A DNA stretch of 34,939 nt, from positions 1-34,939 of the forward strand of contig DAHUXU010000272.1 in assembly GCA_027307005.1 (NCBI GenBank). The letters are read 5' to 3'. Source of the DNA: Gemmatimonadota bacterium (GTDB lineage Bacteria; Gemmatimonadota; Gemmatimonadetes; Gemmatimonadales; Gemmatimonadaceae). The notes beneath the pieces are model-generated. The model was not told the origin of the DNA and made no database searches. It saw nothing but the letters and a program-made list of their open reading frames with translations. Shown piece by piece: positions 21,918 to 25,419 of the stretch. Each line of letters opens with the position of its first letter. The stretch's first letter is position 1. The position numbers and the translations under genes are program-made.

Positions 21918-23030
21918 TTAGTCAATGAGACGCAGCGGCATGATGAGGCACATGTACTGCGCCGGGTCATTCCAGCCGACGGGTTCGACGGTTGCCGCTC
22001 TCTCTGGTGCTTTGAACGTCAGTCGCACTTCATCGGTCGGCATGTTGCGCAGGATTTCGAGCAGATAGCTGGCATTGAAGCCGATGTCGAGCGCGTCGCC
22101 TTCGTAGGTGACGGGCAGCTCGTCTTGCGCTTCTCCCAAGTCCGGCGTCTGCACACTGAATTTGGCCATTCCTGCGTTGAACGACATGCGGATCCGATGC
22201 GTCTGATCGGAGGCAACCACGGACATACGCTTGAGCGCTTGTGAGAGCGCGTTCTTGTCGGCAAGCGCGATGCGATCGTTGTCGCGCGGAATCACCTGCT
22301 CGTACGGCGGGTACGGGCCTTCGATGAGGCGCGTGAAGACCGCGGTGAGCGGCGATCGGAAACCGAGATGGTTCTCTCCGCGCGCGATCTCGAGATCTTC
22401 TTCCGCCGGGAAGAGCCGTCGCAGCTGCTCGAGTGCTTTGGGCGGGATGATCAGATCTTCCGAGCGGCCGTTTTGCCCGGCGACAGGTACCTCGATTTTC
22501 GCGAGGCGGTGACCGTTGGTCGCGACCATGCGCATGCGGTCTCCGCGCAATTCCCAGAGCACGCCATTGAGAATCGGTCGGCTCTCTTCGGTGGAGACAG
22601 CGAACGCGGTGTGCGCGATGAGCTTTTGAAGCTCACCAGATTTGATCCTCCAGCTTTCCGAGAACTTGACTGCCGGGAAGGTCGGGAATTCGTCGCGAGG
22701 CAAGCCGAGTAGACGGAAGCGAGACCGTCCGCACTCGAGCGTGATCTTCTGTTCGCCGACCGCGCTGATTTTCACCGGCGCAGATGGAAGCTCGCGCACG
22801 ATTTCGGCGAGCTTCTTGGCGGGAACGGTGATGGCTCCCTGGCTTTCGACATCGGCGATGACTTCGGTGGAGACGGCCATGTCGAGATCCGTTCCGGACA
22901 AGCGGATCCCGCGCTCGTTGGTCTCGAGCAAGATGTTGGACAAGACCGGCAGTGTTGTTTTCGCCGGTACTGTCGCTATGACTGCCGACAATCCGTCCTG
23001 AAGTTTTTCGCGCGCGATAGTGAAGCGCAT
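21918..23030 (-). CDS. dnaN: DNA polymerase III beta sliding clamp
   Basis: 370-residue clamp that tethers the replicative polymerase to DNA. The N-terminus (MRFTIAREKLQDGLSAV), the TLPVLSNILLE and LSGTDLDMAV blocks, the RPILNGVLWEL segment and the C-terminal YMCLIMPLRL all match the family; three clamp domains fit the length. It lies downstream of dnaA on the same strand, across the oriC region, the classical dnaA-oriC-dnaN arrangement. Confidence 0.97.
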   Translation of the reverse strand: MRFTIAREKLQDGLSAVIATVPAKTTLPVLSNILLETNERGIRLSGTDLDMAVSTEVIADVESQGAITVPAKKLAEIVRELPSAPVKISAVGEQKITLECGRSRFRLLGLPRDEFPTFPAVKFSESWRIKSGELQKLIAHTAFAVSTEESRPILNGVLWELRGDRMRMVATNGHRLAKIEVPVAGQNGRSEDLIIPPKALEQLRRLFPAEEDLEIARGENHLGFRSPLTAVFTRLIEGPYPPYEQVIPRDNDRIALADKNALSQALKRMSVVASDQTHRIRMSFNAGMAKFSVQTPDLGEAQDELPVTYEGDALDIGFNASYLLEILRNMPTDEVRLTFKAPERAATVEPVGWNDPAQYMCLIMPLRLID

Positions 23031-23292
23031 TCCGATCCTCTGGTCCCGGATGCTCGCGGGGCTTGGAGTGAGAACGTGAACTCGCGGTGTTTTTCCTACT
23101 ACTTCTTTACTGTTGGATCAAGAGTAGTAGAAGTAGTAGGGGGTGTGGAATATGGGAAAACCAGGCGAAAGCATGAAGCGCGCAGCAGTTATCGTACTGA
23201 GAAAGCTGTGGGAAACCAAGTTACTGTGCCGAGAGCGTTGGAAAACGCGCGATGCGATGTGGAGACGCGATCGATTTCCCACGGCGTGCACA
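23031..23292. other. oriC: Chromosomal replication origin oriC (dnaA-dnaN gap)
   Basis: The 262-bp gap between dnaN and dnaA has lower GC than its flanks. Three minus-strand DnaA-box-like 9-mers occur at 23144-23152 (TATTCCACA), 23207-23215 (TTTCCCACA) and 23258-23266 (GTCTCCACA). Next to the first box a run of Gs (23139-23143) leads into CTA/CTT trinucleotides at 23139-23122. This is the box, GC block, DnaA-trio order known as the basal unwinding element of bacterial origins. The boxes deviate from TTATCCACA by two to three bases, so weak sites are expected. Confidence 0.82.
23095..23140. repeat. Inverted DnaA-trio tracts
   Basis: CCTACTACTTCT (23095-23106) and AGAAGTAGTAGG (23129-23140) are a perfect 12-bp inverted repeat with a 22-bp spacer. 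Each arm, read inward, is a string of CTA/CTT trinucleotides. The right arm continues as CTACTACTC on the minus strand and adjoins a DnaA box; the left arm has no box next to it. The structure could be two opposed unwinding tracts or a cruciform. Confidence 0.8.
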
Positions 23293-24681
23293 TCACGTGT
23301 GAAGATCCGAAATGCTTTTCCGCAGTGATTCCACACGACCGTTGAACGGAGCGTCGCTGGCCAGCAGGGACTGGACGCGCTCGAGGCTATGGATGACGGT
23401 GGAGTGATCGCGTCCACCGAAGGCGTTGCCGATTTCGACGAGTTGGAGGCCCAGGAACTCGCGGATGAGGAACATCGCGACCTGGCGCGGCACGGTGAGC
23501 TGTTTGGTGCGGCTCTTGGAGCGCAGGCCTTCGACGTTGATGCTGAACTCTCGAGCAACCAATTGCTGGATGGACTGAACGCTCAGCGCGTGCTTTTCAT
23601 CGGCGGTGCTGTCGCCATTTAGTCGCAGTTTGTCACGAAGTGCTTCTCGCGCCAGGCTGACTGACACGTCGCGGTGTTTGAGCGACGCGTAGGCGAGGAG
23701 TCGGATGAGCGAGCCTTCGAGCTCGCGGACGCTGGAGCGGACGTGTTCGGCGATGAAGCGGATGACGTCTTCCGGGATGGTGAGCTCGAGGTGATCGAGG
23801 CGCGCCTTGTTCTGGAGGATCGCGATGCGGTGTTCGAGGTCGGGCTGTTCGATGTCGGCGACCATGCCCCATTGGAACCGGCTGACGAGGCGTGCCTCGA
23901 GTCCCGGGATTTCGGATGGTGGCCGGTCGCTGGTGAGGATGATTTGTCGTCCCGCTTCGTAGAGTGCGTTGAACGTGTGGAAGAACTCTTCCTGGGTGGC
24001 TTCGGTGCGTTTGAGAAAGTGAACGTCGTCGAGCAGGAGGAGATCGGTTTCGCGATAGCGCCGGCGGAATTCGGGAGTGGACCGTTTTTGGATGGCGGCG
24101 ACGAGCTCGTTGGTGAACTGTTCGGTGCCGACAAAGCAGACGCGTGTTGACGGTGCGCGCTGCATGATCTCGTGGGCAACGGCTTGCATGAGGTGCGTTT
24201 TGCCCAGTCCGGTATCGCCGTAGATGAACAGCGGGTTGTAGACTTTGCCCGGCGCGGCGGCGACGGCTTGTGCGGCAGCGGCGGCGAGCTCGTTGGACTT
24301 TCCGATGACGAAATTATGGAAGGTGTAGCGGGCGCTGAGTTGGACGCCGGGGGCATCGCCAGGCGCTGTTTGGCGTGCCTGGTCGGGCGGCGGCGCGACG
24401 AACAAGTCCATTTGGGGCCGAGTCTTTCGTTCTTCGTCGACGCGAAAGACGATGGTGATGGGATGGCCTAACGCCAGTGGCGCGAGACTGGCGAGATACT
24501 GCGAGTGCTTGGATTCATTCCAATCGGCGGCGAATCGATCGGGTGCCGCGACGACGATGGTATCGCCTTCCAGCTCCAGTGCTTCGGTCGGCTCCAGCCA
24601 TGTTCGGTACGTTTGCTCGGGCAGCTCGAGGCGAGCGCGATCGAGCAAGCGGGACCATGTTTCTGTTGCCGTCAGTGTCAT
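23293..24681 (-). CDS. dnaA: Chromosomal replication initiator protein DnaA
   Basis: AAA+ initiator that binds DnaA boxes and opens oriC, 462 residues. Domain I starts at the ATG at 24681 (TATETWSRLLDRARLEL). AAA+ motifs: YTFHNFVIGKSNELA, Walker A GDTGLGKTHL, Walker B LLLLDDVHFL. Domain IV has the box-binding helix with GGRDHSTVIHSLERV near the C-terminus. The frame is open about 165 codons further upstream, but that part overlaps the rpmH promoter region and is not DnaA-like. A consensus-type DnaA box at 24725-24733 lies upstream, so autoregulation is likely. Confidence 0.97.
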   Translation of the reverse strand: MTLTATETWSRLLDRARLELPEQTYRTWLEPTEALELEGDTIVVAAPDRFAADWNESKHSQYLASLAPLALGHPITIVFRVDEERKTRPQMDLFVAPPPDQARQTAPGDAPGVQLSARYTFHNFVIGKSNELAAAAAQAVAAAPGKVYNPLFIYGDTGLGKTHLMQAVAHEIMQRAPSTRVCFVGTEQFTNELVAAIQKRSTPEFRRRYRETDLLLLDDVHFLKRTEATQEEFFHTFNALYEAGRQIILTSDRPPSEIPGLEARLVSRFQWGMVADIEQPDLEHRIAILQNKARLDHLELTIPEDVIRFIAEHVRSSVRELEGSLIRLLAYASLKHRDVSVSLAREALRDKLRLNGDSTADEKHALSVQSIQQLVAREFSINVEGLRSKSRTKQLTVPRQVAMFLIREFLGLQLVEIGNAFGGRDHSTVIHSLERVQSLLASDAPFNGRVESLRKSISDLHT

Positions 24682-24724
24682 GCTGGGGAACGACTCGGAA
24701 GGGGACGCGAAGCTAGATTCGGCG

Positions 24725-24733
24725 TGTGGAAAA
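24725..24733 (-). promoter_or_regulatory. DnaA box upstream of dnaA
   Basis: On the minus strand TTTTCCACA fits the relaxed consensus TTWTNCACA exactly. It is 44 bp before the dnaA ATG, in the dnaA promoter region, where DnaA commonly represses its own gene. Confidence 0.65.
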
Positions 24734-24810
24734 GTCAATCCGATGAAAACACGGCAGTAGCGTGAGTGGCGGCAATGCGAATTGCGGAGCGGCGCACGAA
24801 AAGTGTGGCG

Positions 24811-24839
24811 TTGACCGATGCGCGTGTGGTTGGTAGCTT
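24811..24839 (+). promoter_or_regulatory. Promoter of the rpmH operon
   Basis: TTGACC (24811-24816) and TAGCTT (24834-24839) with a 17-bp spacer, about 45 bp before the rpmH ATG. The -10 box is a weak match, but the spacing and position in the divergent dnaA-rpmH gap fit. Confidence 0.5.
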
Positions 24840-24884
24840 TCACGTTCTGTCTGTTGTGAACGGAACACGCATTGGAGTAAGGAC

Positions 24885-25049
24885 ATGGGCAAGCCAACGT
24901 ATCGTCCTCGGAACAAGCGCCGCATTCGCACGCATGGATTTTTGGAGCGGATGTCGACGCGTTGGGGGCGTGAGGTATTGAGTCGGCGTCGCAAGAAGGG
25001 TCGGAAGCGGTTGACCGTTCGGCTTCCGTCGAAGTACGCAGGCGCCTGA
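24885..25049 (+). CDS. rpmH: Ribosomal protein bL34
   Basis: Basic 54-residue protein of the large ribosomal subunit. The translation starts [19 protein letters not shown] and continues with [20 protein letters not shown] and KRLTV, the full L34 signature. A GGAG site lies upstream of the ATG. It has about eight extra C-terminal residues (LPSKYAGA) compared with the shortest homologues. It is divergent from dnaA and begins the conserved rpmH-rnpA-yidD-yidC-mnmE cluster. Confidence 0.97.
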
Positions 25050-25077
25050 GCGTCGGCGGTTCACGCGCCCGCATCGG

Positions 25078-25419
25078 TTGACGCGGCGCGCGGAGTTGGA
25101 GCGAGTTACGCGCGAGGGGAAGCGCATCCGAACCGACAGCCTCGAGCTGCGGTGGATCGCTTCCCCTCTTGGACATCCGGGTGGGGGTGGGGGGCGCGTT
25201 GGATTCATTGTGCCGAGGTATGCGGAGACTGCTGTGGCGCGCAATCGGCTCAAGCGGCGGCTGCGAGAGATTGCGCGCGTGGAGATTCTGCCTCGCATGG
25301 GCTCGTTGGACGCCATCATTCGAGCGCGGCCGGTAGCATATCGTGTCACGTTTGCCGAACTTCGGCGCGAGATGACACGTATGGGGGATGGATTGGTCGC
25401 CGGAGCGGAGCGCGAGTGA
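25078..25419 (+). CDS. rnpA: RNase P protein component
   Basis: Basic protein partner of RNase P RNA for tRNA 5' maturation. The core motif [14 protein letters not shown] matches the family RNR region, and [12 protein letters not shown] the N-terminal part. The only standard start codon is TTG at 25078, giving 113 residues. However, the ten codons before it, back to the rpmH stop, read [10 protein letters not shown] in the same frame. This looks like the normal RnpA N-terminus with its substrate-contacting Phe, yet no ATG, GTG or TTG precedes it. The true start may be non-canonical or reached from rpmH. The stop overlaps the yidD ATG. Confidence 0.9.

Follow-up and report, generated by a model that had tools for sequence, protein, structure and literature searches.

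The gap between dnaA and dnaN in a member of the Gemmatimonadaceae raises the question of whether a bacterial origin may be opened by DnaA from two sides, with DnaA-trio signals on both strands, in opposition at the two sides of a single melting zone. How two helicases are loaded onto the two strands of a bacterial origin is a stated unsolved problem (PMC10721633). A lineage with DnaA-trios on both strands, one set at either edge of the melting zone, is naturally suited to testing whether DnaA can mark both strands by itself, and such a test could reuse the existing oligonucleotide assays of the basal unwinding sequence (BUS). A second signal facing the first in mirror image would offer a simple means of preparing both strands for two replication forks. 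The stretch of DNA analyzed here, referred to as the window (34,939 nucleotides), is one entire contig of a 733-contig Gemmatimonadaceae MAG.

The gap spans 262 bp and lies in a gene neighbourhood that corresponds to the classical origin arrangement. It is bordered by dnaN, encoding the sliding clamp (21918..23030, minus strand; three DNA_pol3_beta domains), and by dnaA, encoding the initiator (23293..24681, minus strand; Pfam Bac_DnaA at 5e-68, Bac_DnaA_C and DnaA_N). The far side of dnaA carries rpmH, rnpA, yidD, yidC and mnmE, among which rpmH, rnpA and yidD were identified by eye. The first in-frame start of the dnaA reading frame is at 25176, and homology begins at about codon 155-170 in many homologue matches; the likely start is near 24681. 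The longest frame (23293-25176, minus strand) has 627 aa, and automatic annotation could place the start of dnaA about 165 codons too early, within the rpmH-dnaA gap, which also contains the DnaA box TTTTCCACA (24725..24733, minus strand, 1 mismatch). Elsewhere, in loci L002 and L003 (G000:C69, 179-1774), a single open frame lying away from the dnaA locus gives two strong Bac_DnaA domain matches.

Within the dnaA-dnaN gap lies the least stable 50-mer of the whole 35-kb window (23090..23139). The gap is very probably oriC, the chromosome replication origin, since it combines the dnaA-dnaN neighbourhood with unstable DNA. GC skew does not switch sign at the gap within the window, which comes from a fragmented assembly. 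Two single-contig relatives, G026 and G130, show a skew that turns from mostly negative ahead of dnaA to positive behind it, although this profile is noisy and coarse, being sampled every ~230–260 kb (dnaA of G130 is located at 3.69 Mb).

The first of the two signals belongs to a published type. On the minus strand, which is the sense strand of dnaA, the box TATTCCACA (23144..23152, 2 mismatches to TTATCCACA) is followed by the GC spacer CCCC (23140..23143) and by six DnaA-trios, CTA-CTA-CTT-CTA-CTA-CTC (23122..23139). The published BUS rule demands a box with at most 2 mismatches, a spacer of 0-16 bp and at least three NTN trios, with the central A of the trio on the bound strand (PMC8287927). 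The 262-bp gap holds a canonical BUS by this rule: the box has 2 mismatches, the spacer is 4 bp long, and there are six trios. This agrees exactly with the initial annotation, which had read an origin with an unwinding sequence of this kind in the gap. A search of the 3.85-Mb assembly for the tract (15 nt, at most one mismatch) gives a single match, and the tract forms the strongest block in the alignment of relatives, and the TCCACA core of its box is retained in most congeners. DnaA would bind the strand complementary to this tract; such a mechanism is assigned by homology, because the DnaA of the window contains both the AAA+ and the box-binding domains that a BUS requires and aligns with a Bacillus DnaA at 42% identity. 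The arrangement resembles the BUS of Bacillus subtilis and its relatives, in which a box, a short GC spacer and repeated 3'-GAT-5' trios lead into the melting zone in the interval from dnaA to dnaN (PMC6669920, PMC8287927). Two weak DnaA boxes are also present in the gap, TTTCCCACA (23207..23215) and GTCTCCACA (23258..23266), both on the minus strand with 2 mismatches.

The second signal has no counterpart in the B. subtilis BUS. As had been noticed initially, a tract of four trios, CTA-CTA-CTT-CTT, faces the first one from the plus strand (23096..23107); read on the dnaA sense strand, its reverse complement starts 14 bp beyond the first tract. Between the two tracts lies the centre of the melting zone (23108..23121), which is AT-rich in most relatives, and the least stable 50-mer extends across the opposed tract and this centre into the greater part of the first tract. 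The opposed tract of the window passes the trio count of the BUS rule (at least 3) and fails its box requirement (at most 2 mismatches within 16 bp): all 9-mers ending 0-17 nt before it have at least 6 mismatches to a DnaA box. The earlier remark that a box adjoins the first tract only is thus right for the genome of the window. The published survey retained one BUS candidate per origin, and the words 'inverted', 'opposite' and 'both strands' are nowhere mentioned in its text (PMC8287927). Opposed or inverted trios and a two-sided origin design were not found in the open-licence literature searched.

Together the tracts include a perfect 12-bp inverted repeat with a 22-bp spacer (23095-23106 / 23129-23140), as originally described. 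Taken alone, this repeat is only modestly unusual: block shuffles of the window contain 0.3 perfect 12-bp inverted repeats with a spacer of at most 60, and further, unrelated ones exist in the real window. The stronger evidence against chance comes from relatives, in which the opposed tract is conserved. From the order, the dnaA–dnaN gaps of ~90 genomes were gathered, and ~45 more came from other families of the class. Each gap was anchored at its first tract, and the opposite strand was scored for its best match to three trios. By this custom scoring scheme, devised after inspection of the sequences, 64% of 72 dereplicated relatives within the Gemmatimonadales score as having an opposed trio tract, compared with 25% in dinucleotide shuffles, with the window's own genus excluded. 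The mean score is 5.59 against 4.22 ± 0.15 (z 9.0), where the null treats dereplicated genomes (<75% identity) as independent. With base shuffles, 39 dereplicated genomes give 5.83 against 3.55 ± 0.21, and the same test on an upstream control region yields a z of 0.4. The opposed tract is therefore conserved in the Gemmatimonadales, and the initial reading, which had been made to depend on conservation in relatives, survives the comparison.

It could be argued that the tract is not a separate element, and that purine-rich edges of the melting zone, together with ordinary DnaA boxes near dnaN, merely imitate trios. The uneven quality of the tract across genera is consistent with such an explanation, as are the modest excess in other orders of the class (z 2.6) and the frequency with which shuffled AT-rich DNA produces a match by chance. 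Functionless mimicry nevertheless appears clearly unlikely, as it has to contend with the z of 9 against dinucleotide shuffles in the order and with the narrow range of positions, as most tracts lie 30–39 nt away from the first trio. In family f2, an unguided MAFFT alignment also shows a column-level footprint, in which the opposed tract stands out as the conserved block AG.AGTAg.

The initial annotation had left two explanations of the facing tracts side by side, namely converging DnaA filaments and a cruciform at the opening site. Conservation of the opposed tract favours converging DnaA tracts, while the alternative that the inverted repeat acts as a DNA cruciform or a single-strand hairpin is very improbable. 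The window strand itself folds at -12 kcal/mol (z -6.2), and strong hairpins also occur in two other genera (L093 and L094), but the median hairpin z in 39+39 relatives is about -0.6, which makes the window an extreme outlier. The perfect 12-bp repeat is moreover lost within the genus. In congeners L007 and L008, a change of CTA to CTT in the opposed tract breaks the pairing and retains the trio, and in L009 the arms differ from those of the window; variation of the right arm thus preserves trios rather than pairing. With no conservation of the perfect repeat even inside the genus and unremarkable hairpin potential in relatives, a cruciform is unlikely as a shared function.

A comparison of arms leads in the same direction. 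Compensatory conservation of the inverted repeat was not found, apart from a weak excess of complementarity between a genome's own arms over swapped arms (6.88 vs 6.48, outliers omitted). This excess of 0.4–0.75 score units, calculated without correction for phylogeny, is small yet statistically detectable, and much of it derives from a few genera, those of the window, L093, L094 and L039, where a hairpin may play a role. As a conserved function, the cruciform or hairpin was rejected by the swapped-arm test, the hairpin z in 78 relatives and the comparison within the genus. As a separate observation, L093 (G020) carries, from the first tract to +55, an unusual CTGGTACTGCTGT-like sequence common to both arms, and is the strongest example of the two arms having changed in step.

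The other orders of the class provide a further indication of what the second signal may be. Their opposed-tract excess is modest even where the box is clear, and more than half of these relatives have no clear opposed tract. An inverted DnaA-box core (GTGGA or TGTGG on the sense strand) is found in 20 of 39 genera, against 0.4 expected, at 45–59 nt from the first trio, and it is visible as GtGGAaAac in the unguided MAFFT alignment. A full BUS on the reverse strand, as defined by the published rule (PMC8287927), is present in 8/39 genera against 0.5 expected. Since both the inverted box and the reverse BUS exceed expectation, some of these origins appear to carry a complete mirror-image pair of unwinding sequences facing across one melting zone. 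In the order of the window this second, inverted box is missing, a core at the same place being found in 1/39. Forward boxes occur there further downstream, in 8/39 and 7/39 genomes in two 15-nt bins against ~1.1 expected in each. Several gaps of the order (for example L031, L034, L046 and L054) show a forward TCCACA box after the opposed tract, and in part of the order this box occupies the place of the inverted box of the other orders.

These patterns point to a two-sided oriC, in which DnaA takes hold of one strand at either edge of the melting zone, possibly with a helicase placed on each; we regard this as a fairly probable reading. Against it count the missing adjacent box of the opposed tract in the window's genome, the relatives that lack a clear opposed tract (about a third in the order and more than half in the other orders), the other class of the phylum, where three genomes have neither signal, and the local GC skew, which keeps its sign at the gap. 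From the box at 23144-23152, DnaA would extend an ATP filament into the first tract and capture the complementary strand, as in the established BUS mechanism. The opposed tract (23096-23107) would serve as a second single-strand site for DnaA, on the other strand and at the far side of the same melting zone, which would allow both strands to be captured and kept apart. In other orders the second filament could begin from its own inverted box, whereas in the order of the window, where this box is gone, the second tract would probably be filled after duplex opening by the first filament. Three steps are inferred from sequence patterns: the binding of DnaA to the opposed tract, the capture of two strands and the placement of helicases. 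A likely use of such a design would be to provide each strand with one helicase, DciA acting as the helicase operator; DciA is found in 28/31 genomes of the group. The wider proposal that Gemmatimonadota flank one melting zone with mirror-image DnaA unwinding sequences on opposite strands, so that both strands are marked by DnaA itself and each is assigned one helicase without a DnaD-like factor, is more tentative, and we consider it possible rather than probable.

Bacillus offers a precedent for a different assignment of the second signal. Its DnaD recognition element (DRE), described in Firmicutes, likewise adds to the unwinding site a second element that is specific for one strand, and recruitment of the second helicase through DnaD at this single-strand motif has been proposed (PMC10201434). 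The opposed tract might accordingly be a single-strand site for another protein such as DciA, which is present, and resemble the DnaD element while lying beside the trios and not opposite them. This alternative is unlikely, as the tract itself has the form of DnaA-trios and the inverted box that follows it in other orders points to DnaA. The DRE, in contrast, is complementary to the trios and is recognised by DnaD (PMC10201434). The DnaB_2/DnaD domain (PF07261) was found in 0/21 genomes of the window's group, with positive controls in B. subtilis and L. lactis, which also speaks against a site for another protein, and on this ground the DnaD/DRE explanation was rejected.

The location of the element within the dnaA-dnaN gap, on a transcribed strand, also allows for a regulatory site or an RNA structure that acts on dnaN expression, and inverted DnaA boxes could control this gene. 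Such a role seems highly improbable, however, as the element lies within the least stable 50-mer of the window and the Rfam scan gave zero matches up to E=1. A search for promoter-like sites, and for terminator-like ones on the dnaN strand, was likewise negative; an RNA element, a promoter and a terminator on that strand were each rejected on these results.

A two-sided DnaA origin would have partial parallels in other bacteria. Streptomyces is said to possess an origin with two putative unwinding elements (cited in PMC7561715), which is similar in having more than one unwinding site per origin. In B. subtilis, the BUS does not have the second tract that is found here on the other strand, nor the inverted box of its own that accompanies the second signal in other orders of the class. 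According to one account (PMC10316083), the oriC of Escherichia coli contains two facing DnaA assemblies, with left and right arrays oppositely oriented, but both arrays are found to the same side of the unwinding element, while the signals described here stand on both sides. The same account describes the extended Trio (eTrio) of Thermotoga maritima oriC, a TAG-repeat single-strand motif that is likewise bound by DnaA. There, a TTATT motif, the eTrio and a DnaA-trio share a single unwinding element that adjoins one DnaA-oligomerizing region, and an opposed tract is not mentioned in that description (PMC10316083).

Beyond the class the picture is less uniform. Neither the opposed tract nor the inverted box is present in three genomes of the other class of the phylum. 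In a search of other phyla that was small (39 + 25 genomes), the 39 genomes with a first tract show no clear overall excess of opposed tracts (4.78 vs 4.50 ± 0.18). Scores of at least 6.5 occur at a frequency of 0.21 against 0.07, some of them resembling ribosome-binding sites, and inverted boxes occupy the corresponding place in 2/39. With no clear overall excess in these genomes and so few inverted boxes, a universal bacterial feature was rejected. In the phylum of L155, the excess is absent in 8 genomes; two of its loci, L320 and L325, lack opposed trios and have inverted DnaA boxes (GTGGATAA and TGTGGACAA) downstream of the first tract. A raw excess of 5.51 against 4.38 ± 0.26 (17 genomes, not dereplicated) is seen in the phylum of the Saganbacteria locus L144, and given this excess the two-sided design may not be confined to Gemmatimonadota. 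Opposed trio-like tracts lie beyond the first tract in L274, L275 and other members of this phylum, and an inverted DnaA box does so in two of its genomes. A further locus, L095, comes from a contig titled 'Nitrospiraceae bacterium', although its DnaA is 69% identical to that of the window and its gap is of the Gemmatimonadota type; the MAG is probably mislabelled or mixed.
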